This document shows, one piece after another, positions 1-63,094 of a DNA stretch of 64,000 nucleotides. This DNA is from Hysterangium stoloniferum. Taxonomy: Eukaryota; Basidiomycota; Agaricomycetes; Hysterangiales; Hysterangiaceae. Made by a program: the position numbers and the translations under genes. Numbering within the stretch: the first letter of the stretch is position 1; each line of letters opens with the position of its first letter. The notes under the pieces were generated by a model. That model was given only the letters and a program-made list of their open reading frames with translations, did not search any database and had not been told where the DNA came from. The DNA lies in the NCBI GenBank assembly GCA_015178975.1, contig WHVD01000076.1, forward strand, positions 248,001-312,000, written 5' to 3'.

Positions 1-2367
1 ACTTCATGACGAACACGTTCGTGAAGTCCTCCGAAGACTCCAAAAACATGGTCTTTTTGCAAATGGTAAAAAATGTTCTTTTGATGTCGACACAGTTGAA
101 TATTTAGGTTTTATGATGGGACCTGGTGGTCTCCGCATGGACGACTCTAAAATTCAAGTCATTCAATATTGGCTGGAACCCCGAAAGGTTAAGGACATTC
201 AGTCCTTTTTAGGCTTCACCAATTTTTATCATCGTTTCATTCACAACTACTCAAAAATTACCGTTCCACTCACTCGTCTTACTCGCAAAGACGCCCCATG
301 GATTTTCTCCGAAGAATGCCGATTGGCATTCCAAGAATTGAAAAGTGCGTTTACATCTGCCCCTATCTTGTTGCACTGGAAGCCCGACATTCAACTCATT
401 GTGGAAACTGATGCCTCAGATTATGCGCTTGCTGCAATATTGTCCATTCTGGACACCGATGGTGAAGTACACCCAGTAGATTTTCTGTCTCACACGTTTT
501 CAGCACCCAAACTCAACTATGATGTTTCACGATAAGGAACTACTTGCAATATTTGAAGCTTTCAAGACATGGCAACATTATTTGGAGGGAACGGCCCACC
601 CGATAGATGTTATTACTGACCACAAAAATTTGGTTTACTTTTCAACCACGAAACCTCTCACCCGTCGACACGCTCGATGGTCCGAATACCTCTCTGCTTT
701 CAACATGGTAATTCGCTTCCGTCCTGGCCGCCTTGGTGGAAAACCCGACGCTATGACTAGATGATGGGATGTCTATCCTAAAGAGGGGAGTAGCGACTAT
801 GCCACAGTTAATCTGCATAATTTCAAGCCTATGTTTTCATCAGAACAACTGTCTGCATCTATCCGAGCCACTTACCTCATTCATCCAGTCTTGTGAAGTG
901 TTATCCTTATGGATACCAAAAAGTTACTTCAAGATATACTATCGGCAATTCCATTAGACCCAGTCACCAAAGCACACCTCGATAACCTGTCCGACCCCGA
1001 TCAACCCCGATGGTCATTAGACTCACAAGGTTTCATTAGATTTGACAATCGCATTTATGTACTGGATTCCGACACCCTTCGGCTGTGAATCCTACAACAT
1101 AAGCACAACCACCCAATCTCAGGACATTTCGGCCTCAATAAGACCCTCTCACTCATTAGAAGAGAATATACATGGCCCGGCATCCGAGATTTTGTTAAGC
1201 ACTATTGTAAATCTTGTACTATGTGTCTACACTTTAAATCACAGTGACACAAACTATATGGCCTACTCAAACAATTACTGATACCGGAAAAACCTTGGAA
1301 CTCAATTTCTATGGATTTCATCGAGCACCTACTGGCATCTGAAGGTCACACAGCAATCCTAGTTGTTGTGGATCGGCTCACAAAACAAAGTATTTTCATT
1401 CCAACATATGACACAATAACATCTGTACAGTTAGCTGAATTATTCATCACCCATGTATTTTCCAAGCATGGTGTTCCATCGCAAGTCACATACAATCACG
1501 GATCCGAGTTTGTCTCTCACTTCTTTAGGTCACTCGGAAAAGCACTAGACATGAAGCTACATTTCACTTCGGGCTATCACCCGGAAGGCTCTGGCCAAAC
1601 CGAACACATGAATCAAACTTTGGAACAATACATCCGTGTCTAATCACTACTACTGCTAGCCGAATTCGCATATAACAATGCACCGAATGCCACTACTGGC
1701 ATTTCGCCTTTCTTCACAAATAAAGGCTACAACCCCAACATCACAATCCACCCGGAATGTGATCTCGCATCCACCCATGCTCAAGACTTTGTTATAAACC
1801 TTGACGAGCTACATCAAGAACTTCGTAAAACTATCGCAATGGCTCAAGAATGATACCAACGGTCTGCGGATAAGAATCGACTTCTGCCTCCTGATTTCAA
1901 GATCGGAGACCAGGTATTCGTTAAAGCCGAGTTTTTCCAAACTACTAGACCCTCTAAGAAGCTCTCTGAAAAATATTTAGGTCCTTTTGAAGTTATAGCA
2001 CAAGCCGGCACACTTTCATGGACACTTCGGCTCCCCGACAACATGCATGCAGTGCACCCGGTATTTCATGTATCTATGTTAGAAACCTTGTGTTGCTAAC
2101 AGTATACCAGATCGCATACAACCACCACCTCCACCCGTGATCATTGATGGAGAACCCAAATTCGAGATATCAGAGATCCTAGACTCAAAAATCGACAATC
2201 GCTGACGTTCATGCAAATTACTTTATTTGGTTAAATGGGCTGGCTATGAAGGTACAGATGAAGAAACTTCATGGACCCTAGCTACAGAGCTCGGTAATGC
2301 CTTGGAAATCATTTTAGGGTTTCACCAAGCCTATCCAAACAAACCCGGTCCTCTAAATTCTTTATAA
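1..2367 (+). pseudogene. Ty3/gypsy element 1 pol (RT end, RNase H, integrase, chromodomain), broken
   Basis: This is the 3' part of a chromovirus polyprotein; the rest lies left of the window. Seen in order: the end of RT with the connection to RNase H (from about 113), RNase H (to 764), an HHCC zinc-binding region with CKSCTMC (about 1100-1230), the integrase core (1311-1643), and a C-terminal region ending in a chromodomain with LLYLVKWAGYEGTDEE and a stop at 2365-2367. Breaks: one extra T near 523 shifts RNase H from frame 2 to frame 3; a stop at 1641-1643; another stop near 1850; and frame loss near 2090-2210. The second integrase aspartate, normally in SDRGSEF, reads N in TYNHGSEF, so the DDE triad is lost. 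The family normally mobilises through reverse transcription in the nucleocapsid, then chromodomain-guided integration. This copy cannot do that alone. It is followed by an antisense gene and its own 3' LTR. Confidence 0.93.
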
Positions 2368-2474: not shown

Positions 2475-3541
2475 CTACAACTTCTCCTTCCTCTCCGGCC
2501 TCCGAACCTCCCCCCTTACCCACACTGATACCACTCCACCGACCTTTTCCAATACACCAACCTCATGCCCAACCCTATCGCAACTCGAGACTTCTAAATA
2601 CTGCTCAAGTTGACCTCCAAGGGACTTGATAACACTGGTCTGCTTCTCCAGCCCAATGCCCAAAAGTTGCAACTGCTCGGTCATGAGCCCTTGTTGTTGC
2701 AGTGTCTCAAATCGGAACCTTGTCATCTCTGAGAAGTAAGTCTGCATAAGGCGGTTTTGCTCTTCCAGAGCATCGGCCTGTCGCTCCTGGAACAATCTGT
2801 CGGCCCCCGGGAAGACCCATCCAAGCTTCTGAGCAGCGCACTCTTGACAAGTGTGGTCCCAACCATTGGCCTGAGGATGGCAAGTTCCACCCCGTTTCAT
2901 GCACCAGTTGCACTTAGGGTCATTTTCCGGCCCCGCCTTGGGAGCCTGCTTTTGTTTCTATAGGAAAATTATTAGAAGGGTTTTTCTTTAGGAAACCAAA
3001 CCTACCTTGGGGCTCGATGGCCCCAGTGCATCCTCCTCGTCCTCCTCTTCCTCTTCATCATCCGACTCCGAAGGTGTCACAGCCTTGCGCTAAAAGATAT
3101 ATATATGTGTATTAGCAAGGTTTGTGAAAGATACGGGAGCCGACTTACCTTCCCCTCCCACTTCTTTTTTTCCACCTCCTCTCGTGCCCGATTGGCCTCC
3201 TGCTGCTTTTTCTTTGCAAGCACTGCATCCCAGTGCTTGTGCATGGCCTCTTCCACTGCCTGTTTCTTCTCCTCGGCCTTGATGGCCACCAGCTCCTCCT
3301 TCTCTTTCTGCTCCTCCTCTTCACGCGCCTTTCTCTTCTGCTCAAGTAATCGACAACGTTCCTGCACGTTAGGTGGCCTACTCGGCCCCAACATGGGAGC
3401 GACAGTCAATCTAACCAGGAATGGTTTCGACCCCGACCCTATGGTCATGGTGGTCAAGGGAAGAGAAGTGAAGAATCTAGCGCCGACACCCCTCGGATTT
3501 TTATATGTAAATTTTTGCCGAGTCACATGATGTTTTGACAC
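2475..3541 (-). CDS. Antisense accessory gene of gypsy element 1: coiled coil / Zn2Cys6-like protein, 3 exons, open
   Basis: Exons on the minus strand are 3541-3149, 3089-3006 and 2957-2475. The introns (3148-3090 and 3005-2958) both have GT-AG ends and phase 0, and the joined frame is 319 codons. Visible parts: a basic leader (residues 1-45); a long Glu/Lys coiled coil (about 60-130); an acidic stretch (135-155); a cysteine cluster with C175, C178, C185, C196 and C199; and a second helical, coiled-coil-like segment (about 210-275). Cys spacing is CX2CX6CX10CX2CX6, then W206 where a GAL4-type Zn2Cys6 cluster has its sixth Cys. The gene lies 107 bp past the pol stop, convergent with pol, and its 5' end is about 80 bp from the 3' LTR. 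Related copies occur at 5331, 23840 and 57630. The function is unknown; DNA binding is inferred from the Cys spacing only. The start could instead be one of the later Met codons (near codons 32 or 49). Confidence 0.72.
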
Positions 3542-3575
3542 ACCAAACCGTACCTGATGGGTTTTTTATGTACGG

Positions 3576-3623
3576 GATCTAGATTTTCGGCCTCCTTGGG
3601 ATTTCAGCCAAATGGGGAGATAC
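3576..3623 (+). other. Polypurine tract and conserved pre-LTR block, element 1
   Basis: The block CTCCTTGGGATTTCAGCC is followed by AAATGGGGAGATAC directly before the LTR start TGTTACG. The same arrangement precedes the 3' LTR of element 2 (about 6450-6495, ending AAAGGGAGGGTAC) and, on the minus strand, of element 4 (about 57480-57450, ending GGGGGGTAC). A purine-rich tract at this place is the plus-strand primer site of LTR elements. Its position shows that the antisense gene lies inside the element and not in host flank. Confidence 0.75.
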
Positions 3624-4349
3624 TGTTACGACCCTGTCACAGCCATTCGGCCCCGAGGTTATCACCACCTATCGACGATTCAAGTTATCGCTCAAGTTAC
3701 CACATCGGAAACCATCACCCCCCGATGCTGATGTATGCTTTCGCGGTGATCAAACTCCGTTTACGCCCACATCAAAATATACTCGTACTATCTGGTTAAA
3801 CCTTTGATACATCCCTTTTATTATGTTGATCCGTTCTATCCTATGTTTCACATATGTCAATGTATATTTGTAGTCCTCAAACTATTTCCTTTTACCGTAA
3901 CTCTGCTCTCAGTTATCATCAGCCTCTGAACTAATCATAAACTTCCCATTCCTAGTCAAGCTTATTGTTAATACCATTTTCCGCCTTTCTCCCCGTTAGT
4001 ATTTTCTAGACGCCTGTTACTTGTATATGAACCCGCCATAGTTGTAGTTACTAGGCAATCAGAATATCGACTCAGAATACCCTCCTACGCCTCTAGCAGT
4101 CTTGTACTAACAATCCCCTCTTCCGCCTTCGCATGTGCTCGCCCACTTCTGGCCCTGACCCCTTGGCCCGACACTCAACTTGTCCTTCAGTTCCGATCGG
4201 TATCTCACCGAAAGGAACCCTTGAGGATTAGTCTTTGCCCGTCCGAAATTTAAGGACACACTACAGATATTTGCGAGGGCACAGCACATAAGCTGAAGCC
4301 AAGTCCTTCTGATCGGCCACCGACATTAGTCAGTTTTCAGTTCTTAACA
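3624..4349 (+). repeat. 3' LTR of gypsy element 1 (family A, 726 bp)
   Basis: It starts TGTTACGACCCTG and ends TTCTTAACA, and is preceded by a polypurine tract. A second copy of the same LTR lies at 11197-11921. The shared motif GCACATAAGCTGAAGCCAAG sits about 60 bp before the end (4282-4305). Immediately to the right, element 2's integrase reading resumes at 4350, so element 1 is inserted in element 2. The right-hand target duplication would be CATTG (4350-4354); its partner is outside the window. Confidence 0.9.
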
Positions 4350-5124
4350 CATTGGAACAATACCTCTGTGTATATTGCAACTACCAACAGGACAATTGGA
4401 ATCCTTGTTACCACTTGCAGAGTTTGCTTACAACAATGCACCTTCAGCCACTACTGGCGTTTCCCCGTTCTTTGCAAATAAAGGATATAATCCAAATATT
4501 ACAGTACATCCAGAACGAAATCTCGCCTCTGCTCACGCTCAAGAGTTCATCACAGACCTCCACGGGCTCCACGAGGAACTCCGGACTGCAATAATGTCCG
4601 TGCAAGAGCAATATCAACATTCAGCGGACAAACACCAGATCCCGCCACCAAACTTCAAGATTGGCGATCGTGTTTTTGTCAAAGCTCAATTCTTCCAGAC
4701 TACCCGTCCATCAAAAAAGCTTGCTGAAAAATATTTAGCTCCTTTTGAAATTATCGCACAAGTAGGTCCAGTCTCTTGGACTCTACAGCTTCCGGATAGC
4801 ATGTGCATGGTACACCCGGTATTTCATGTTTCTATGTTAGAACCTTGTACTGCTAACACTATCCCGGATCGCATGCAATCTCCGCCTCCTCCAGTCATTA
4901 TTGATGGAGAACCCGAGTTTGAAATCTCACAAATTTTAGATTTGAAAATCGACAAGCGTCGACGCACTTGTAAACTGCTTTACTTGGTCAAGTGGGCAGG
5001 TTACGAGGGCACCGATGAAGAAACCTCATGGATTTTGGCCACAGAACTCAGTAATACCACGGAAATTGTTACTGACTTTCATACAGCTTACCCACTCAAA
5101 CCTGGACCACTATCTTCTCTCTGA
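4350..5124 (+). pseudogene. Ty3/gypsy element 2 integrase C-terminus and chromodomain (5' part displaced by element 1)
   Basis: Sequence resumes at an integrase position equivalent to 1619 of element 1 (LEQYL). It soon enters an uninterrupted 249-codon frame (4375-5124) that covers the integrase C-terminal region (SAHAQEFITDLHGLHEEL, then FKIGDRVFVKAQFF) and a complete chromodomain (LLYLVKWAGYEGTDEETSW), and it ends PLKPGPLSSL then stop. The amino acid sequence is close to element 1 but cleaner. The N-terminal side of this element must lie left of the window, beyond element 1. It is not functional as placed, because the integrase is cut. Confidence 0.92.
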
Positions 5125-5330
5125 CTGCACTCCATGGACCCCGTGTTACGTTTGGACTCATTTTCATTATTCCCTGTCACCCTATGTCTCTCTGTGCTTT
5201 TACAGGTTCTGACATGTTTCTTCAAGTCCTTAAGCAGTTTCTCCACAGACTTTGACTTTTATGTTTTTTCACGCTTTACTTTTATATTCAAAAAAATATT
5301 ATTATTCTATTCTACTTTTTCAGTCTACAT

Positions 5331-6190
5331 TTATGGGACTGTGTTTTTCCCCACTTCCTCAGCTATCTCCTCAGGGAGCTCCGCGACCTCCATGGCAACC
5401 CCGTCCTCATCCGACCTGGCATCCTCGGAACTCCCAACTTGCGGCTCTTCATACACATAGCTGCCATACTCCGCCAAAAACTTCCAAAACTCCTCATGGA
5501 GTCTGCACAGTTCCTTCACCACCACTATATGGACCTTGTTGCTCTTCCGGAACAACTCATTTTGGGCCTCTATGCCCTTGGCGATCCATCCCAGGACCTC
5601 ATCCAACCTGGAAAATCCATCCGACCCGCTGATGTCTCATGCCCCGGACCCCACGGCCTACTCGTGAACAGGTGAACACTTCGCCTTGAGGTGTGCACAT
5701 TGGTAGCAGCCCGGACCCTGGCTGGACTTTCAGTTGCATTCCGTGTTCTGGTCATTACAACCGGAACACTGTGGGTCATTCCGTGTGGGCAGGGGGACTG
5801 GCGCCGCCTTCCTTGCCTTCTGTTGATGTGGTTAGTTCCAAGGTATTTCCCACAGACCCAATGCTTACCTTTTGGGGGCTCTCTGGCTCCCCCTCGGACT
5901 CCGATTCGATTTCTGCCACTTTGCGCTGAAAATGACAAGTCAGTGAAAAAAAAAAAATGACAAGTCATTTTGGGACTTGCCTTTCCCACGACAATCGCGG
6001 CCCTGTCTGCAGCCGCCCGCGCTTTCTCCACAGCCACTCGTGCAGCCTCCTCCTCTTCCCTTTCCTTCTGCCTCGCAGCCTCATCCTCCACAGCCAATGC
6101 CGCTTGGTACTCCTTGTCCAGAGCCTCCTTGGCCTCCCTGGCCTCCCTCTCTGCTTCTTCACAAAGTCGGCACTGCTCTTATCACCGTGC
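5331..6190 (-). pseudogene. Antisense accessory gene of gypsy element 2 (copy 2), decayed
   Basis: This is the same layout as copy 1. The exon 1 coiled coil ends at 5981 (EEAEREAREAKEALDKEYQ and onward). Intron 1 is 5980-5926 with a GC donor (GCAAGT). Exon 2 is 5925-5869 (acidic, ESESEGEPESPQ). Intron 2 is 5868-5820, and exon 3 runs from 5819. The Cys cluster reads C-X2-C-X6-C-X9-C-X2-C-X6-C, so all six Cys are present, but a TGA follows the third Cys and a second stop follows KCSPVHE. The C-terminal helical part (5606-5331, NELFRKSNKVHIVVVKELCR) is still open. The N-terminus beyond 6190 is frameshifted. The gene converges with element 2 pol (stop at 5124) and its 5' end faces the 3' LTR at 6496. 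The stops look like CGA-to-TGA decay. Confidence 0.75.
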
Positions 6191-6495
6191 CAAAAGTTGG
6201 GCCACACTCCAAGGCGCCCGATACAGAGTGCCCATGGAGGGCCTGGCGGTTGGCATTGCTCATCTTGGCGTTGGTTTTGGTCCCATTTTTTCGAAGATGG
6301 GGGTAATAAAGAAGAAGAATTTCTATTTTTTCAAATTTATATATAGGCTCATCGTGTTTGAACCTTACCTTCCAGATCACATGACTCCTTGACACATACG
6401 TGTAACTGACATGACTCTTGACACATGCACATAGCCAACAAGAACCTTATTGAGGTCTAGAGCCTCTTTGGGACTTTGGCATAAAGGGAGGGTAC

Positions 6496-7303
6496 TGTTA
6501 CAACCGGAAATCCCACCAGACTCCGGGTACTAACTTATACACACCCGTGCCCTATACGCACCCATTATCAGTTTACCAGAATACCTGTTGGGCTCCGTAC
6601 ATGTCTACATTCGTCTTCGTTACATTGTGTTTCAGTCACCGGAAAACCCACCGGACTCCATCTCTGTCTATGTCCAACCTCATCCCGCATGTCAGTCACT
6701 GGACCCCACTCAGTAAAACCCGTCACCTCTCTAACAGAGCCCTGTTCCCGTTTTAGTCAAATGACCTGTCACGATTCGGACTCTGCTCCCGCTCCGTCTC
6801 CTGTTATGGTTTATGATTTGTCACTATTCGGACTCCGCTCCATTCCATCCCGTTCCTAACACCAATTTGGTGTTTACTACTCCCATTTTATGTTTTGCTC
6901 ATTTCATTTCATTATTACTGGATTCGGTATGACATTTACTCCATGGTCTATTTAAACTGGCAATGTTGTACATACAATCCAGTCAGAAAATTGGCTTAGA
7001 TTCCCCCCAGTAATCTAATACATTTTCCACTCTAAAACCCTACTTGAATCACACCACTCACACTAGTCGGAGCCCACGGGCTCTGGCGTATCTATCTCTC
7101 TCACGCCATCTTGGCTCATGACCCATGACCTCCGACCTACAACCTCTCGACCACGACCCCCACCTGGACTCCCTGGGATTCCCATCTGCCCGTCTGAAAT
7201 TGGATGACACGATCTAGTGAGGGTGCAGCCTATAAGCTGAAGCCAAGTCCTACCGGATATTCTGCGGGTTTCTCTGGAGACCCACCCTGTATGTATCCTA
7301 ACA
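6496..7303 (+). repeat. 3' LTR of gypsy element 2 (family C, 808 bp)
   Basis: It starts TGTTACAACCGG right after AAAGGGAGGGTAC and ends CCTAACA. A second, solo copy lies at 24959-25760. Internal landmarks are a TATA-like CTATTTAA near 6950, then ACATACAATCCAGTCAGAAA, then the shared motif CTATAAGCTGAAGCCAAGTC at 7229-7250. The next bases (AGGGG, 7304-7308) would be the right-hand target duplication inside the copia integrase. Confidence 0.9.
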
Positions 7304-19892: not shown

Positions 19893-19933
19893 TGTTGCAT
19901 TAAAAAGGAACATTAATACTATCTCATTATCTT

Positions 19934-20779
19934 ATGTCCAACATCAATGCCTTACTAGTGAGCATTCCAAACCTCTTGGGTGATAACTACCACAAATGGA
20001 AGTTTTCACTGTCAATGGTTCTGTGGCATGCTGGATTGTGGGGTGTTGTGAGTGGTGGAGCAAAGGCACCTAAGGATGAGAGTAGCAAGGAGGATTTCAA
20101 ATGGGAAAAGTATTTGGAGGATGGTTACACAGCAATTGCACTCACAATTGTGCCAAGCCAACAATCATATATTCAGGATTGTACCACTGGGCCTGAGGCA
20201 TGGCAAGTACTTGTGAAAATCTATCAGGCAAATAACCAGGCCAATCAGATTTCATTGAAATGCCAGCTCTATGCATACCAGCATGATGTCAAAAAGCTGG
20301 TGATTGAATATGTCCATGGCATTTTGACTCTTGCTTCACAGCTTCAAGTGATTGGAGTTGAGTTATGTGAAGAGGATGTCCTGGATGTCCTCATCTATTG
20401 TTTAGCTCCAGACTTTAGTGCAGTTGTGACTGCTCTTATGCAGCATGTGGGATCACTTACTGTCAAGGATATTTCTGCAGTGCTGGTAGAAGAAGAAAGC
20501 CATCTGAAAGGCCAGAAGGACACTGAAAGTCAAATTGTGCTGAAAACAAAAACAGACTCACCAAATGCAAAACAGCCAAGAAATTGCTATAGGTGCAATG
20601 GTGAAGGTCACATCATGCATTTTTGTCCCCCACCAAAGCCAGTTGGTTCATCATTAAGTGGGTTGCCCACTGAAAACCTGGAGGCTCTCACACTGGAGGC
20701 ACTCCAAGGTTTTTGGAGTTGGAGAACCTTCCAAAAATCCTACTATTTGGCCAAATTTTCTAGGAATTCTTTGAACTGA
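19934..20779 (+). CDS. Copia-type Gag protein with CCHC zinc knuckle
   Basis: An uninterrupted frame of 281 codons. The N-terminus has the copia Gag signature LLGDNYHKWKFSLSMVLW (about residues 14-31), and the middle region is helical (about 60-170). Near residue 220 is a complete knuckle CYRCNGEGHIMHFC (CX2CX4HX4C). Gag forms the particle that packages element RNA. The last 30 or so codons are read through the left arm of an inserted foldback element that starts at 20691, so the original C-terminus is lost. No CG dinucleotide occurs in the 846 bp, yet the frame is intact, which argues that the CpG-poor state is old or selected and not recent decay. Confidence 0.88.
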   Translation: MSNINALLVSIPNLLGDNYHKWKFSLSMVLWHAGLWGVVSGGAKAPKDESSKEDFKWEKYLEDGYTAIALTIVPSQQSYIQDCTTGPEAWQVLVKIYQANNQANQISLKCQLYAYQHDVKKLVIEYVHGILTLASQLQVIGVELCEEDVLDVLIYCLAPDFSAVVTALMQHVGSLTVKDISAVLVEEESHLKGQKDTESQIVLKTKTDSPNAKQPRNCYRCNGEGHIMHFCPPPKPVGSSLSGLPTENLEALTLEALQGFWSWRTFQKSYYLAKFSRNSLN

Positions 20780-21065
20780 TAAATGTTTTGAAAATTTCAA
20801 GTTTTAATAGGATTTTCCAAAGTGGAAAACCATATCTGAAAACTTTAAATATTTGTATCAAAAAACTCTGACTAATGATGTTTCCTCAGATTTCCTGATA
20901 CAAATATTTAAAGTTTTCAGATATGATTTTCCACTTTGGAAAATTATACTGAAACTTAAAAATTTCAAACAATTTATCAGTTCAAAGAATTCTGAGAAAA
21001 TTTGGCCAAATATTAGGATTTTTGAAAGGTTTTCAAACTCCAAAAACCTTGGGATGCCTCCAGTG
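20691..21065. mobile_element. 375-bp foldback element with CACTG ends, duplication TCA
   Basis: Left arm 20691-20863 and right arm about 20892-21065 are near-perfect inverted copies; both begin CACTGGAGGC when read inward, separated by about 30 bp. TCA occurs at 20688-20690 and 21066-21068. CACTG ends with a 3-bp duplication fit a non-autonomous CACTA (CMC) element. It has no coding capacity and is inserted at the 3' end of the TR-GAG gag. Confidence 0.8.
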
Positions 21066-21378
21066 TCACTGCTAGCACAGGGGAGAGTATGTGTATATTG
21101 CATACCTAATATCATCACATAGAATAGGAGTTCCAAGGTCTGGCCTTTGTGGTCTGGGAGGTTGGGGGAATGAGTTCTAGGAGCAAGGAATGCTCTGAGG
21201 TTTGATTAAACACCAAAAATACCAGATGAATCTTGCATCTAGTGGACACAGTGGGTGTGTTTTCAATTTTTGGATGGATTTCCAGACAGATTTTCTGATG
21301 GATTTTGCATCAAGTGAGTGCATTTTCTTTTGTGTTAAAAAAGGTGTTTAATTTTCTCAATGACATGCAAAGTGGGCT

Positions 21379-23839: not shown

Positions 23840-24486
23840 TGGGTAATAAAACCCTTGCATCATTACAATTATATGGTTGTTGGACTCCTGCTTCCCCTAC
23901 AGAACACAGAACACCTACTCTCTTCCCAAATTTCTGCCGGAGCTTCTGGTAGAACTTCACACCTTTATACCTCTTTGTAGGAGGGTATTTGGGGTATCTA
24001 TGCCCACCACTATCCACACCAGGGCTTCCTCTAATGCCCCTGATCTCTCCATGGCCTCCTGAATGAGTGGACATTTGGCCTTGAGATACACACAAGGCCA
24101 GCATCCCAGGCCCTAACCATATTTTCAGAAACACTTGATGTCCCAGTAATGACAACTGGAGCACCATGGGTCATGCTTCAACTCTAGAACTCTAGGTGAG
24201 TTGGCAGCCCTCTGTTGACTGACTATTTCTTTCCATGAGTATTGGGAAACTCTGCAGAAACTGCACTCACCCTTTGGTTGGAAGGCCCAGGCTCTCCCTC
24301 AGACTCTGTTTCCATCTCCTTGCACTACTTGTCCAAAAGAAATAAATGGCTACCTTTCCATATTTTCTCTGCTGCAATCCAAGTGGCCTTCACTTTCTTC
24401 TCCTCCTCCTTCCTCTGCTCTTCTTCCTTCTCTGCAGCCAATGCTGCCTGGTACTCTTTTTATAACTCCTCATTGGCTTCAGTAGA
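23840..24486 (-). pseudogene. Antisense accessory gene, copy 3 (no adjoining pol), decayed
   Basis: It reads leftward from 24486. A coiled coil like copies 1 and 2 (KEYQAALAAEKEEEQRKEEE) is followed by a short intron-like gap with GTAGCC and AAGTAG ends, an acidic exon (ETESEGEPGPSNQ), and a Cys cluster near 24170-24080 with CSSCHYWDIKC and then CWPCVYLKAKC. All six Cys are present, but stops fall between the third and fourth Cys. One stop is at the same place as the TGA of copy 2. The N-terminal side ends where an inverted-repeat segment begins at 24487. No chromodomain was found to its left, so it may be a displaced fragment of another gypsy element. Confidence 0.65.
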
Positions 24487-26325
24487 TATCAGAAAGTCGA
24501 TCATGTCAGGATATTAATTTACCATTCTATCCTGCTCTCGAGGTAAGCAATCCACAGTGTGTGGCTCCCGTTGTAACACGGCTATCCAGCCAAATATCGG
24601 GGCTGGGAGTCACAGTTCTGCCACAACAATCTAAGGCTAGAAAAAATGGGCACCTTGTGATGCTCTTGGTGAAGAGGCAGAAAAATCCCTAAAGGTGATC
24701 TACAGACTTAGTTATGCAATTCTGGAAGGTGACACCATGTCTCGTTTGAGCACGAGATGTGTAGTCATAAAATCAGTTAATAACCCTTCAGGACATAGGG
24801 CAGGAAGATAAAAAGAGATGCAAATATAAATATAAACAAAGAAAAGCAACGTTGATGCAGTTTGTTAGCCTGAGCATGACAGAACTCAGTATTTACCTGG
24901 AATAGCAGTAGCATGAAACTGATTCTGCATTCCGAGTTTGCATTAGGATACACCATACTGTTACGACCGGTATTCCCGCTGGACTCCAGGAACTAACTTA
25001 TACACACCCGTGCCCTATATGCACCAATTGTCAGTTTACCGGAATTCCCGCTGGACCCCGTACGTCAGACTTGTCTACATTCAACTTCATTACATTGTGT
25101 TTCAGTCACTGGAATACCCACCAGACTCCATCTTTGTCTATGTCCGACCTCACCCACGCATCAGTCACCGGACCCCACTCGGAAAACCCGTCATCCCTCT
25201 AACAGAGCCCTGTTCCCATTTTAGTCAAATGACCTGTCACAATTCAGACTCCACTCCCGCTCCATTATGGTTTATGATTTGTCATGTTTCGGACTCCACT
25301 CCATTCCATCCCATTCCTAATACCAATTTTGGTGTTTACTATTCCCATTTCATGTTTTGCTAGTTTCGTTTCATTATTACTGGATTTGGTATGGTCTATA
25401 TAGTCTGGCAGATGTTGTACATACAATCCAGTCAGAAAATCAGCTTAGATTCCCCCCAGTAATCTGACACATTTTCCGCTCTAAACTCCTACTTGAATTA
25501 CACCGCTCACACTAGTCGGAGCCCATGGGCTCCGGCACATCTATCTCTCCTATTTATCTCAACTCCCGACCTCTCGACCCACAACCTCTGACCTACAACC
25601 CCCCGAGCCACGAACCCTGCCCAGATTCCCCGGGACTCCCGTCCACCTGTCTGAAATTGGACAACACAATCTCATGAGGGTGCAGCCTATAAGCTGAAGC
25701 CAAGTCCTACCAGATATCCCACGGGTTTCTCCGGAAACCCACCGTGTACATACCCTAACACATACCATCTTCATCTGAAATGTCAGAATAGAGCACCCCA
25801 GGATGGTCAGAACAATATCATTTCCCCACCTATCAGCTATATGTTTGGGTTTCAATCAGGGATTCATACGTGATTTCACTTTACACTTCATATTCCAGAC
25901 CATCTGGAGTCCACAATGTCAACCATCATCTCGAATAGTTCCATGTTTATGTCTAGCAGGGAGACACCCAGTTACTTCAGTTAAAATGTTACTTAGAATC
26001 TAATGGACGTATCAATAGCATAGTGCTGTGGCATTTTATCCTTAAATTATTTCTACCAAAATTGAGCTATGACATGCCATGTGAACTGGACAGGAAATGA
26101 GTAATGGTGGGCCAGAATCACATCACTATGTCTGTAGATCTTCTGATTTTTCTACTTCTAAGAGTTGCCGTCCTTCATAGCCTTAGATTGTATCACAGAA
26201 CTGCCACGACATCACGGGCCCCAATATTCAGCTGAACAGCCGTGAGCCACATGCTGTGGATTGCTTACATTGAGAGTGGGATAGAATGGTAAATTAATAT
26301 CCTGACATGATCGACTTTCTGATAT
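24487..26325. repeat. Inverted-repeat segment 1, upstream of hydrophobin relic 1
   Basis: The left arm starts TAGATATCAGAAAGTCGATC at 24487. The right arm, read backward from 26325, starts with the same bases. Similarity continues for roughly 230 bp with gaps (GTGTGGCTCC against CATGTGGCTC, ACAATCTAAGGCTA, GATCTACAGACTTAGT). The interior from 24660 to 24958 matches 31740-32340. A TA at each edge could be a target duplication. It is interrupted by solo LTR C2. No transposase is visible, so it may be a non-autonomous DNA transposon or a rearranged duplication. Confidence 0.6.
24959..25760 (+). repeat. Solo LTR C2 (802 bp), duplication CATAC
   Basis: It starts TGTTACGACCGG and ends ACCCTAACA, with CATAC at 24954-24958 and 25761-25765. 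TATA-like GTCTATATAG lies near 25392 and the shared motif at 25685-25708. It is in the same family as the 3' LTR of gypsy element 2. Confidence 0.93.
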
Positions 26326-26393
26326 CTACTTTGTGAATAATGATTGCATATGCAGTTTTGGAAAATAAAAGAAAATTTAGGTGTCTTTTCGAG

Positions 26394-57629: not shown

Positions 57630-58795
57630 ATGTGCATATGTCATCCTTTGTTTATCACCACTCTGGAAAATTCAGAAGCTGAAATTGCTGAGGTTGAAAT
57701 GTCAAAAGTAGAAGAACTTCAACAAAAACAACAGAGGATGGAGGAGGTGAAAGAGTTAATGTGGGAGTTGAGGGAGGTGGAAGAGGCAGAAAAACAGGAG
57801 TTAGAGTGGATTGAGGAGGAGAAGAAAATGGAGGATCAGAAGGAATGGCTTCAGAAAATAGTGGTGGATCAGACGTTGTGGGATGAGGTGGAGAAGAGAT
57901 GGCAGAAGAAAAAGGGCTAAAAGAGAAACAGGATGGAAAAGTGAGTGAACCGGTAATGTTCCATGTGTCTCCAATAATGGTAAACAACAGCAGAAAGCTG
58001 ATGAGGAGGATGAGGAGGGAGAGGCTTGGCCTTCAAGTCCAAAGGTAAGTATTTTTTGTAAAAGTTCCAGAATATGGCTAATATCTGAAACAGAAAAAAA
58101 AGACCAGGGCTCTGGAACAAATGGAGACTGCTCATGAAATTCCATGTCAGTGATGTGTGAGCTGGGGCATTACTTGTTGGAGGCAGAAGGTAAAATGGGG
58201 TGGAACTTATTTCCCTTGTGTGGTGAACAACATTCTGTGCACTCTTGCCATCAAATGAACTCAAAAGGCAAAAAGGCTCAAATGGTTGAAAAGGTGAAAA
58301 AAACAGAGGGGGTGGAAAAAACAGCAATTGCAGAAACCTCAGAAATGACTAAGCCTATGGAAATTGCAGTGCTGAGCATGGATGATGATACCAGTGTTGG
58401 ACTCCTCAGGGATACTGTCAATGTGATGGTATTCATTGGGATGGAGTTGATGAAGGTTTGGGAAATGTTAGAGCATCATAACAACATCCAAGAAAAAGGA
58501 TTCTGGGCATTAAATTGAAACTTCTGGAAACAAAATGAGTTCTTGGAAAAGGTAATGGTCAGCATCAGTATTATTGTGGTTTCTGAAAGGTACACTGATA
58601 AAGAAAAGGATGAGCTGAATGATCCATTGGTGGATATGGTTGAGAAAAGGTGGGTGTTGGGAGAAAGACTAAAAAGTGAATATGGGGAGGTGCAAGAAAT
58701 GGTGGAGAGTGCAGAACTTGGGATGGAAGTTGCCAATGGGATGGGAGTTGAAGTGGAGGAGGGATTTGGAGTACTGGAAATGCTACAATAATTGT
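57630..58795 (+). pseudogene. Antisense accessory gene of gypsy element 4 (copy 4), decayed
   Basis: It is on the strand opposite to element 4 pol, between its chromodomain and its 3' LTR. The exon 1 coiled coil (57650-57917) is rich in Glu and Lys (EELQQKQQRMEEVKELMWEL). An acidic piece ADEEDEEGEAWPSSPK follows (about 57997-58044), then a GT-AG intron (about 58045-58090). The Cys cluster (58140-58235) reads C-X2-C-X6-C-X10, then Y-X2-C-X6-C, with a TGA inside the first pair; one Cys is changed to Tyr. The C-terminal part (58350-58795) still shows helical stretches (DTVNVMVFIGMELMKVWEML) in more than one frame. Acidic exon end and splice position match copies 1 and 2. Confidence 0.68.
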
Positions 58796-61035
58796 ATCTT
58801 TATTTTTTAACTTGCATAAAATGTTTTGATGTGACTTGAAATCTTGTGTGAAAGAGTGTAGTATCAGAAGTCTCAGCAAACAGAACAGGAAAAACAGAGG
58901 AAATCAGAGTGACAATAAAGGTCCAGGTTTACTAGAATAAGTGGTGTGGAAGTCAGTTACAATTTCCATAGCATGTCCAAGTTCTGTGGCCAATATCCAT
59001 GAAGTTTCTTTATTGGTAACTTTGTAGCCTGCCCATTTGACTAAATAGAGCAATTTACAAGCACACTGGTGATTGTCGATTTTAGAATCTAAAATCTTGG
59101 AAACTTCAAATTCAGGTTCTCTGTCAATGATGACTGGAGGAGGTGGAGGTTGATTACATTCTGGGATATTGTTAGGAACACAAGGTTCTAACATGGAAAT
59201 GTGGAAAATGGGGTGAACTGCTCACATGCTATTGGGAAGTCAGAGAGTCCAGGAAAGTGAGCTGGCTTGTGCTATAATATTGAAAGGACCTAAGAATTTC
59301 TTGGGAAGTTTTTTGGCAGGTTGGGTAGTTCTGAAAAATTGAGCTTTTACAAAAATCTGATCTCCAATTTTGAAGTTAGGAGGTGGGATTCTGTTTTTAT
59401 CTGCGGAACTTTGATAATGTTCCTGAGTGGAAAAATAGCTTTCTGAAGTTCCTGATGTAACTCATCAAGATCGGTAATAAATTCTTGAGCATGAGCAGAT
59501 GCCAGATCTCATCAAGACAGATGAAACCTTGAGAGTCTTGGGACCACTGGGGTTGATCGGGATCTTTGGGAACTTCTAGGTGTGGCTTGAGAGCCAGGTT
59601 GGAAGTAAGTGCGGAAAGGATATCTGGATGTAATTGTTCAATGTCCATAATCATAACACTATCCATAATTGGATGGTAGAGAGAAGTCACTCAGATAGAT
59701 GTGGAAAGTTGCTGTGTTGTAAAAACTGGTTTCATGTTATGTGGATTAACAACAGCATAGTTACTTTCCCCCTCTTTAGGATAGATATCCCATCGTCAAG
59801 TTATGGCATCTGGTTTTCCACCAAGATGTCCAGGTCAGAAATGGATAATCATATTGAAAGTGGAAAGAAATTCAGACCAGCAGGCTTGCTGTTGGGTCAA
59901 AAGTTTAGTAGTTGAAAAATATTCCAGATTTTTGTGATTGATAATGACATCAATGGGAGTTGTGGAACCTTTGAGGTAGTGCTGCCAATGTTGGAAAAGC
60001 CTTGAAGATTGCTAAAAGTTCCTTATCATGAATGTCATAATTGAGTTTGGAAATTGAAAGTGTCCAAGAAAGAAATACGACCAGGTGAATTTCACCATTG
60101 GAATCTTGAATGGAAAGAATTTGGCTATTGCATAATCAGAAGCATCAGTTTCCACAATAATCAGAACATCAGGTTTCCAATGAGAAAGAATTGGAGTGGA
60201 AGTAAAGGCATTTTTCAAAGTCTGAAAGGCAGCATCACATTTTTCATCAAAAACCCATTGTTGTGATTTATGGGGTAAGTCGAGTGAGTGGTATTGTAAT
60301 ATCTGAATAGTTCCAAATAAATTGTTGGTAGAAATTTGCAAAACATAAAAATGACTGGATGTCCTTAACTTTCCATTGCTCAGGCCAGTTGCAGACAACT
60401 TGAACTTTGGTTTCATCTATACAGAGACCATTGGGCCAAATAATGAAACCTAAATATTCAATAGAATTCCTGTCAAAGTAGCATTTTTTACCATTAGCAA
60501 AAAGACTGTTTTTTGGAGTCTTTGGAAAACCTTGTGGACCTGTTCATCATGAAGTGTGGGATCTTTGAAAAATACCAAAATGTCATCCAAGTAGACTATA
60601 ACACACACATCAAGCACATCAGAAAATATATCATTAACAAAACATTGAAAAATGGAGGGAGCATTGGTAAGGCTGAATGGCATAACCAACCATTCAAAAG
60701 ATCCATAGTGGGTGTGGAAAGCAGTCTTCCATTTATCACCTTTGGCAATTTGGACCAAATGATAGGTGTGTTTAAGGTCTATTTTGGTGTAAATATGAGC
60801 TTTCTATGGGGCATTGAGTAAATTGGTAACAAGTGAGAGTGGGTAAATATCTTTCCATGTTATGGAATTTAAGCCTTGGAAATCAACAAAGAGGTGGAGG
60901 GAACTGTCCTTCTTCTTGACAAAAAGGATGGGTGCTCCATATGGAGACTTTGAGGCATGGATAAAACCTATGGACAGATGTTCATCCAAGAACTCCCAAA
61001 TTGATGAAAGTTCCAATTGGGACAATGGGTAAATA

Positions 61036-62627
61036 CAGTGACCCAAAAAAGTGTCCAGATGTTTGGTGAAATTGGAAAGATGGGTTTGCAGCTCCAGAAA
61101 TAAAATAGATAAAATTCTGAATAAATCAGAGGTAAGAGGTATACATCTAACCTACATGATGACATAAGCATGGCATCATAGCTTTCCTTATCAGGGAAGT
61201 AGGAAATGAACAATGGACATGGTGCATCCGGACATTTTTTTTGCTCTGTCAACTGATACATGAAACTCAACTAAGGTTCATATAACTGTGGGAATTTCTG
61301 GTTAGGTTCAACAATGTCATGTGACCACATGTTTAAATAACACATTTACATGAACCTTTGCCTCAATTCACCCCCCCACCACATGATGAAGAAGCACTCT
61401 ACTGAAACAAGGCTCTCTGTCATTTCTCTTCTCCAGGAGGGTCACTCCTGCAGAACAATTGCTTCTAAACTTCATATTGGGCACTCTAAAGTATCATAAA
61501 TTCGCTCCCAACTCCCTGGTCCACTTCCAACACCTTCCAGAGGTTGTCCTCCCAAACTCTCCCCCAGGGATCATCACCACCTGGCTCGTTCTATCACCTC
61601 TGGACAGGTTGATAATGCCTCCCAAGCCAGGTCCCACCTCTCCCTCAATGTCTGCACACAGACAATTATAAATGCATTGAAGAAAGAGAATTTGAAGGCT
61701 GTGGTGAAGGCCAAAAGACCTCTTCTTGCCTGTCGACACATCAAGGCTCGATATGAGTTTGCTATCAAGTACCAGCATTGGACTGAGGAGGACTGGTTTA
61801 GGGTTATCTTCTCAGATGAGACCAAAATCAATCGTTTGGGCTCTGATGGGAGGTTGTGTGTATGGAAAAGACCAGGTTCTGCACTCACTCAGCATATCAA
61901 TGGAACTATCAAATTTGGAGGGGGGAGTCTAATGATTTGGGGATGTATGACAGCACATGGTGTGGGGTACACGAGCAAGATAGATGGGAGGATGGATGGG
62001 GAGATGTACAAGGACATATTGGAGGACTATATCTTCAAAACAGTGGAGTATTATGGGATGGACAGGGAAAGGTTTGTCTTCCAGCAGGACAATGACCCTA
62101 AACACACTTGCAAGTTGGCCAAGGATTGGTTCAAGGACCATCAGGTGGAGGTTTTAGACTGGCCTGCACAGTCTCCAGACCTGAATCCAATAGAACACTT
62201 ATGGTGGGAGGTGAAGAGAAGGTTTGGAACATACCCTGAGGCACCCAAGAGCATATTGGAGCTCTGGGAGAGAGTGGAGGTGGAATGGAAGGGTATTCCA
62301 AGGGAGAAATGCCTTGAATTGATCAAGAGCATGCCTAGAAGGGTTGCTGCAGTACTAAAGGCCAAGGGGGGGTACACTAAATACTGAAACTGGTAAAAAC
62401 TAGTAATTAATTACAAGAGCAAAAAAAGTGTCCGGATGCACCATGTCCGTTATTAATTTCCTACCTTCCTGATAAGGAAAGCTATGATGTCATGCTTATG
62501 TCATCATGTAGGTCAGATGTATACCTCTTACCTCTGATTTATTCAGAATTTTATCTAATTTACTTCTGGAGCTGTAAACCCATCTTTCCAATTTCACCAA
62601 ACATCCAGACACTTTTTTGGGTCACTG
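61036..62627 (+). mobile_element. Tc1/mariner element, 1592 bp, TA target
   Basis: It starts CAGTGACCCAAAAAAGTGTC and ends with the complement, with TA on each side (61034-61035, 62628-62629). The terminal inverted repeats are about 210 bp (61036-61247 and 62417-62627). It is inserted in the RT of gypsy element 4, and RT reads through once the element and one TA are removed. The transposase occupies 61383-62387. Confidence 0.95.
61383..62387 (+). pseudogene. Tc1 transposase, DD34E, one internal stop
   Basis: One frame of 335 codons from the ATG at 61383 to the stop at 62385-62387, broken only by TAA at 61497-61499 (codon 39). N-terminal helix-turn-helix: LLQEGHSCRTIASKLHIGHS. The catalytic residues are all present: FSDETKI, QQDNDPKHT and NPIEHLWW, with 34 residues between the second Asp and the Glu. 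C-terminus LKAKGGYTKY. The enzyme cuts and rejoins the element at TA sites in the nucleus. The stop lies in the DNA-binding domain, so this copy should be inactive unless the stop is bypassed or translation starts later. The frame from 61677 onward (236 codons) is clean. Confidence 0.92.
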
Positions 62628-63094
62628 TAGGTCCTAATGGTGGGTTTGAACTGGGTTCAATATTTATTTTTAAATTGTAAGGCCTATGTGGTGCAAGCTG
62701 GTCAGCTTTCTGCTTACTGAAAATCTCTGCAAAATCATGATATTTTTTGAGAACTCCTTCCAGGTCAGCTTTTAGCTCAGATAATTCTGGAGTTGCAAAA
62801 CATCCAGATGCTTCATCAGCCTTTAAGCTGATTGAAAAGCACTGTGATCTGTCCAGTTTACTCGCCCTAACAAATGCCGCAGCATTGATAAGAGAGATTT
62901 TCAGAGGTTTGGAGGTTTCATTAGAAGCCAGAATTGCCATTGAGACCAAAGAGGCTCTGGCCAGATTAGATGCTGCAGGAGGAATGGAAGTGTCAGGAAT
63001 CCAGAAATTAATACTGCCCAATACCCAGTCAATCAACAGATTATATCAGGTGAGCCAGTTGTATCCAAGAATGACTGAACAGCTAGAGTCCAAC

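Follow-up and report, generated by a model that had tools for sequence, protein, structure and literature searches.

An apparently spliced antisense accessory gene with Zn2Cys6-like cysteine spacing in one Ty3/gypsy chromovirus clade of Hysterangium stoloniferum

Antisense genes situated between pol and the 3' long terminal repeat (LTR) of a retroelement are already known as a kind, fungi included. HBZ has a spliced form, a basic leucine zipper (bZIP) and an acidic domain. It is an antisense gene of human T-cell leukaemia virus type 1 (HTLV-1) with a nuclear product (PMC11963269), and the HTLV antisense promoter is located in the 3' LTR (PMC7264820). In plants, gene23 of the maize element Grande has its own promoter and encodes a nuclear protein (PMC7264820), while Retand elements carry antisense TRP28 open reading frames (ORFs; aORF-3R, PF04195) that are predicted to bind DNA, are present in 97% of clusters, and are compared with retroviral antisense genes by the same study (PMC11963269). 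In fungi, Boty-like Ty3/gypsy elements of Botrytis cinerea and Sclerotinia sclerotiorum bear brtn in antisense orientation between pol and the 3' LTR (Zhao et al. 2011; PMC7264820, PMC8365987, PMC4227169), and the gag-pol of brtn-bearing Boty elements ends in a CHROMO domain (PMC4227169). Here we describe an antisense gene in gypsy chromoviruses of the truffle-like basidiomycete Hysterangium stoloniferum, a species given as ectomycorrhizal in the available part of PMC7550596. The stretch analyzed, referred to as the window, spans 64,000 nucleotides (positions 248001-312000 of contig WHVD01000076.1) in the 111 Mb assembly GCA_015178975.1. The gene has three exons, its product displays the cysteine spacing of a zinc cluster, and it is almost certainly a protein-coding accessory gene of one Ty3/gypsy chromovirus clade.

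The closest counterpart is brtn, which, compared by description in the available passages, likewise is an extra antisense gene before the 3' LTR of a fungal gypsy element with a CHROMO domain; unlike the gene described here, its host is an ascomycete. The view of the initial annotation that the combination was new to fungi was therefore overstated. The gene resembles those of Retand and Grande in being an antisense ORF between pol and the 3' LTR, one that in Retand is kept in nearly all young clusters according to the same passages. In contrast, Retand is a non-chromovirus plant element, and a Pfam scan gave no TRP28 match here; 'zinc' is absent from the available text of PMC7264820, as is 'intron' from that of PMC11963269. 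The gene differs from HBZ in bearing a six-cysteine (Cys6) cluster rather than a bZIP, and in having a TATA-like box between the LTR and the gene. Among the matches listed in a search of the open-licence literature, none described a basidiomycete chromovirus with a Cys6 zinc-cluster gene or a spliced antisense gene. The zinc cluster, the introns and the basidiomycete clade thus appear to be new for antisense genes of this position.

The arrangement is clearest in element 1, which lies on the plus strand with its reverse transcriptase (RT)/RNase H at the start of the window. The C-terminal part of its integrase and the chromodomain occupy two frames at 1644..2364 (+), and its 3' LTR lies at 3624..4330 (+; start set by TGTTACG, end approximate). 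Copy 1 of the antisense gene sits between them on the minus strand. Exon 1 (3149..3448) runs from the start codon through a charged helix-like region to WEGK, followed by GTAAGT; exon 2 (3006..3089) is an acidic piece (RKAVTPSESDDEEEEEDEED to SPK); and exon 3 (2475..2957) bears the Zn2Cys6-spaced cluster and a helix-like C-terminus, with the stop at 2477-2475. Both introns (59 and 48 nt) are of GT..AG form and phase 0, with a CTAAT stretch 5' of the acceptor, and the spliced product is a stop-free 288 aa. A TATA-like box lies at 3499..3505 (-), 57 nt 5' of the antisense ATG. In element 2, the integrase C-terminal part and chromodomain (4348..5121, +; PF24626 and PF00385 above cut-off) are likewise followed by an antisense gene and a 3' LTR (6496..7303, +). 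Copy 2 is of the same kind and arrangement as copy 1, but broken: exon 1 (5981..6286, -) is frame-shifted with one stop, and its donor reads GC by eye; exon 2 lies at 5869..5925 (-); and exon 3 (5331..5819, -) retains all six cysteines together with three in-frame stops. The gene annotated at 5331-6190 is hence confirmed, but starts at ~6286. The chromodomains scored 30.3 and 29.8 bits against a PF00385 cut-off of 25.1, identifying the elements as chromoviruses.

We searched the genome using both the antisense gene and its neighbour as queries. Exon 3 of copy 1 returned 150 scored matches from 369 candidates, and exon 3 of an uninterrupted relative returned 150 from 1341. Each of the 30 loci fetched by exon 3 (L009-L038, L009 being the window's copy 1; type 1) encoded an integrase-chromodomain (IN-chromo) on the other strand, near the stop codon of the antisense gene. 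The IN-chromo of element 2 gave 147 scored matches of 3906 candidates, and 29 of the 30 loci fetched with it (L039-L068, L039 being the window's element 2; type 2) contained antisense-gene DNA, in some cases cut at a contig end, the exception being L055. The full cysteine pattern was present in 26 of these 30, while L061 and L065 hold a partial gene and L049 an altered motif. Among the matches listed, at least 103 of the 147 IN-chromo places had an exon 3 no more than 2.5 kb away, always on the other strand. The offset was as expected in 102 of these pairs; in the remaining one, the window's element 2 was paired with its neighbour's gene. Taken together, these results bear out the initial annotation of an antisense three-exon gene in gypsy chromoviruses, show it to be genome-wide, and place it in most members of the family. 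As to whether it also occurs away from gypsy elements, all 30 exon-3 loci fetched lie within them, and at least 102 of the 150 places found with the uninterrupted relative's exon 3 have a chromodomain nearby, but 48 have none among the matches listed. Type 1 exon-3 places were paired with a chromodomain in only 2 of 110 cases among the matches listed (the chimera L090, below, and a neighbour's chromodomain), because the chromodomain matches listed belong mostly to other subfamilies and lineages. Exon 3 was 100% identical over 166 aa at 19 or more places, the query counted, several of them near contig ends, suggesting recent movement of the type 2 family. Ten loci in which the pol frame reached at least 1250 aa could be assessed, and 7 of them had an uninterrupted antisense ORF.

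Codon-level comparison indicates that the gene is maintained as a protein. The ratio of nonsynonymous to synonymous divergence (dN/dS) in the antisense frame was 0.235 across 28 distinct type 1 copies (L037, a split match, and one duplicate omitted) and 0.208 across 22 distinct type 2 copies (L050, L055, L061, L065 and L067, with short or absent matches, and two duplicates omitted). The shifted frames of the same strand gave 1.12 and 0.96 for type 1 and 1.53 and 1.52 for type 2, while the IN-chromo of the same locus sets, used as a control, gave 0.23 and 0.14, respectively. The proposal that the gene is not neutral, and is an accessory gene kept by this gypsy lineage, is thus upheld: it evolves under constraint like that on IN-chromo, and its carriers form one clade (below). 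Introns diverged about as much as third codon positions (0.188 vs 0.175 in type 1, 0.090 vs 0.077 in type 2), and their lengths varied, being multiples of 3 in 16 of 100. GT and AG were kept in 22/22 type 2 copies and, apart from two gapped sites, throughout the 28 type 1 copies. An uninterrupted spliced ORF was found in 17 of 24 type 2 loci.

Two other sources of the signal were rejected. The number of copies in the genome and a constraint specific to the frame rule out a chance ORF. An overlapping sense ORF gave a mirror ratio of 0.34 and 0.24, but with 5.3 and 3.1 stops per copy, compared to 1.9 and 1.3 in the antisense frame, terminal stop included; the low sense ratio arises because the two frames share their third codon positions.

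Several observations weigh on the other side. Type 1 is mostly broken, with an uninterrupted ORF in 2 of 29 loci, the window's copy among them. In type 2, a sense-strand frame across the gene is also open (0.32 stops per copy), albeit with a dN/dS of 1.29. The copies share kinship, so that neither pairwise dN/dS values nor box counts are independent events. Lastly, the only relatives returned by protein database searches were predicted genes of H. stoloniferum itself, a negative result that is weak because the search needs shared exact words and transposon genes are expected to be under-annotated. The distribution of the gene, its antisense-frame dN/dS, the kept splice signals, the TATA-like box and the six cysteines nevertheless lead us to conclude, with very high confidence, that it encodes a protein. 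It shares several attributes of aORF-3R genes, being antisense to gag-pol, situated between pol and the 3' LTR, present in most copies, and conserved like IN-chromo.

A separate pattern was noted among type 1 copies. Of the 28 copies from loci L009-L038, 13 have Trp or Gln in place of Arg at cluster codon 146 and 14 do so at cluster codon 161; TGA also accounts for most premature stops among the listed exon-3 matches. Both are the pattern expected of C-to-T decay at CpG.

The gene is restricted to one part of the chromovirus diversity of this genome. Using a motif scan together with comparison against two gene templates, we examined ~1.5-2 kb past the chromodomain at 28 loci, drawn from four other chromovirus lineages, and found no such gene there. 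These were the eight best-scoring loci (L001-L008) and 20 picked across the score range of 150 matches (L069-L088). A relaxed motif scan of these loci gave a few low-complexity matches (L070, L071, L072, L074 and L075). Antisense ORFs of at least 90 aa do occur there (for example, 135 aa in L083 and L084, and 155 aa in L069), and several translations read by eye displayed no relation, no further search of them being made; a very diverged antisense gene may be present in these loci. In a tree of 25 IN-chromo pieces, the 11 carriers all fell to the same side of a branch supported at 98/97. These carriers include element 4, whose copy is weak, and four that were fetched via the antisense gene, and a long-branch warning applies; given this sampling, the tree shows clade restriction rather than frequency.

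One chimera, L090 (C553:69950-71750), stands apart. Near base 540 the 3' end of an other-lineage chromovirus (YEVEAIVGHRKQRNR chromodomain) is joined, ~30 nt beyond the antisense stop, to a type 1 antisense gene and its upstream side. This is either a nested or broken insertion, or a recombination that moved the gene together with the 3' end to another lineage.

The antisense gene appears to possess control signals of its own. A TATA-like box lies 56-61 nt 5' of the ATG in 29/29 type 1 and 24/24 type 2 loci, counts that stand without a chance control. AATAAA occurs less than 200 nt past the stop in 26 of 27 type 2 loci and in none of 25 type 1 loci. Upstream of the TATA-like box, one stretch from each of these two diverged subfamilies contains TGTGTCAAA and TCATGTGA in a shared order, and both are candidates for activator sites of a putative antisense promoter. 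In L089, the one young copy whose LTR was fetched, the LTR starts ~210 nt from the antisense ATG, which places the TATA-like box inside the element, between the LTR and the gene and outside the LTR. A sense TATATAA lies at ~463 of the same LTR.

We then considered what the predicted protein resembles. Zn2Cys6 proteins bind zinc and DNA at CGG triplets, and the spacing of the family is C-X2-C-X6-C-X5-12-C-X2-C-X6-8-C. The antisense protein displays C-X2-C-X6-C-X9-C-X2-C-X6-C, which agrees with that spacing (PF00172 pattern). All six cysteines are invariant in 22/22 type 2 copies; in type 1, five are present in 28/28 copies and the sixth in 27/28, the window's copy 1 having Trp in its place. The sequence match is weaker than the spacing. 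Isolated cluster regions scored 14.2 and 12.7 bits against the Pfam Zn_clus (PF00172) cut-off of 21, and neither half-cluster alone gave a Pfam match; both results argue against a zinc-cluster regulator. In the profile, which has 39 positions, the first half-cluster aligns with positions 16-31, a hint that the order of the two halves is swapped. The protein thus resembles fungal Zn2Cys6 transcription factors in its cysteine spacing and sub-threshold match, and differs from them in falling below the cut-off, in the possible swap, and in the long charged helix-like region that precedes the cluster. A profile search of solved structures gave weak matches, including XIAP (E 0.6) and LAC9 (1cld; E 7.2). 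Hence the initial label 'Zn2Cys6-like' is borne out for spacing but not at the level of the family profile. The coiled coil assigned to exon 1 fared similarly: it contains a charged stretch of 82 (L057) or 74 (L032) residues lacking Pro and Gly, but the heptad signal there is no more than weak (P 0.02 and 0.30, respectively), leaving a coiled coil unproven. The signal was better in the C-terminal helix-like stretch (P 0.006 and 0.07). Exon 2 is serine-rich and acidic, and basic stretches (KKARK and KRKA) flank the cluster. The Pfam scan of the protein matched no bZIP family and revealed no feature of a known silencing suppressor.

Based on these features, we hypothesize that the protein is a regulator encoded by the element for its own use. 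RNA polymerase II would transcribe the antisense gene from the promoter with the TATA-like box within the element, and the spliced mRNA would yield a protein of ~290 aa. Nuclear entry and DNA contact would depend on the zinc cluster and the adjoining basic stretches, dimerization may be mediated by the helical regions, and the acidic, serine-rich exon 2 could contact the transcription machinery or chromatin, so that the protein would tune LTR transcription or silencing. By analogy, its role may be likened to that of HBZ for HTLV and to the one proposed for TRP28 of plant Retand. From its sequence, we give about an even chance to a putative nuclear DNA-binding regulator; action on the LTR of its own element is possible, but we lean against it. 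A more specific proposal, which we regard as tentative and rather doubtful, is that the element encodes a sequence-specific transcription factor of Zn2Cys6 type, its halves possibly swapped, as the product of a spliced antisense gene under a promoter of its own, and that this factor would time element transcription by binding CCGGAC or CGG-N3-CCG repeats in the U3 part of the LTR.

Triplet counts in the LTR bear on this last proposal. The 462-nt U3 of L089 contains 36 CGG/CCG triplets versus 25 expected from shuffles, four CGG-N3-CCG sites (0.3 expected) and six CCGGAC motifs, and two LTRs in the window of the type 2 kind are also enriched (27 vs 18 and 29 vs 17). Other results count against a U3 target. 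Both pol and the antisense gene are likewise CGG-enriched, holding four and five CGG-N3-CCG sites, and enrichment in the type 1 LTR failed to reach significance (P 0.09). One of 11 non-carrier regions (L069) was also enriched. CGG enrichment in U3 was consequently set aside as a sign of self-binding; it is not specific, and the triplet test does not decide whether the LTR is the target. The action on LTR promoters or integration suggested in the initial annotation stays conjectural.

Other functions must be weighed against that of a regulator. It is unlikely, in our estimate, that the protein is a cofactor of replication or integration that binds complementary DNA or chromatin and steers pre-integration complexes beside the chromodomain integrase. 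Its constraint is about equal to that of IN-chromo, its host element has a chromodomain, and a zinc cluster with basic stretches suits any nucleic-acid binder; however, a separate antisense transcription unit places the product outside Gag-Pol, and nothing specific suggests contact with integrase.

Anti-silencing or self-limiting roles are known for other accessory or restriction proteins of retroelements. A protein that binds silencing factors, or represses its own element to control copy number, fits the high copy number of the family, and the CpG decay described above would fit an attacking host; the antisense overlap would in principle also yield double-stranded RNA. Conversely, the Pfam scan offers no known suppressor feature, and the dN/dS values point to a protein that is kept rather than to RNA alone. 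We consider this explanation improbable as well.

Zn2Cys6-like genes are common in fungi, making an ancient host origin plausible, and in the chimera L090 the gene and the LTR side are fused to the 3' end of another lineage. It is nonetheless very improbable that gypsy copies merely happen to harbour a captured host gene or a separate mobile element, considering that all 30 exon-3 loci have the gene at the same place in the element, that carriers fall on one side of a branch, and that protein searches returned no free-standing homologue. Finally, transcription of the gene would give an antisense RNA overlapping the genomic sense RNA at its 3' end, but the idea that the antisense RNA, not a protein, is functional is largely refuted and hardly credible, as frame-specific dN/dS values of 0.21-0.24, kept cysteines and a spliced coding structure need a protein.

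The window holds further traces of the gene. Four copies had been proposed, of which copies 1 and 2 are clear, copy 3 is a degraded relative, and copy 4 is weak by sequence and placed by position. Copy 3 (23942..24480, -; pieces 24480-24367, 24318-24280 and 24196-23942) was recovered in its exon 2-3 part by tblastn (E 4e-13) and by profile (exon 3, E 2.4e-7; Zn cluster, 1.5e-4), with exon 1 reaching only E 0.088 and exon 2 only E 1. It adjoins an LTR of the element 2 type (24959..25760, +), and with no integrase-chromodomain found adjoining it, is a remnant beside that LTR. A 90-nt inverted repeat (92%; 24481-24570 / 26241-26330) flanks the stretch beside copy 3 that holds this LTR, which seems to sit within another element having inverted ends. 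Copy 4 (57630..58795, +), degraded and of a third type, has its exon 2 end at ~58044 and its cluster at ~58136-58246. Its profile scores are weak (exon 2, E 0.13; exon 3, E 0.69; no match for exon 1), although visual inspection shows the acidic piece terminating in SPK, followed by GTAAG, and a stop lies within the cluster. The assignment is made mainly because of its place, order and strand beside the integrase C-terminal part and chromodomain of element 4 (58919..59508, -), whose RT/RNase H pieces lie at 60031..60554 (-).

Elements of other kinds are also present in the window. A Tc1/mariner-type DNA transposon is bounded by 214-nt inverted repeats (61034-61247 / 62416-62629; 94% complementary) and contains an ORF (61500-62387, +) with a 295-aa frame bearing DDE_3 and HTH_Tnp_Tc3_2. 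A Copia-type gag (19904-20779, +; PF14223, E 6.6e-26) lies near a 100-nt direct repeat (19776/21403) and a hairpin (20690-21066).

Taken together, these findings describe an apparently spliced gene maintained within an element that replicates via an RNA intermediate; its introns presumably survive this cycle because they are read from the other strand. If the protein were a transcription factor that binds U3, an HBZ-like control circuit would have arisen independently in fungi. The Cys6 pattern, the near-identical uninterrupted copies and the integrase-like selection make the role of antisense accessory genes in retroelements testable. Conservation equal to that of the element's own enzymes suggests that the protein probably helps to control the life cycle of the element.

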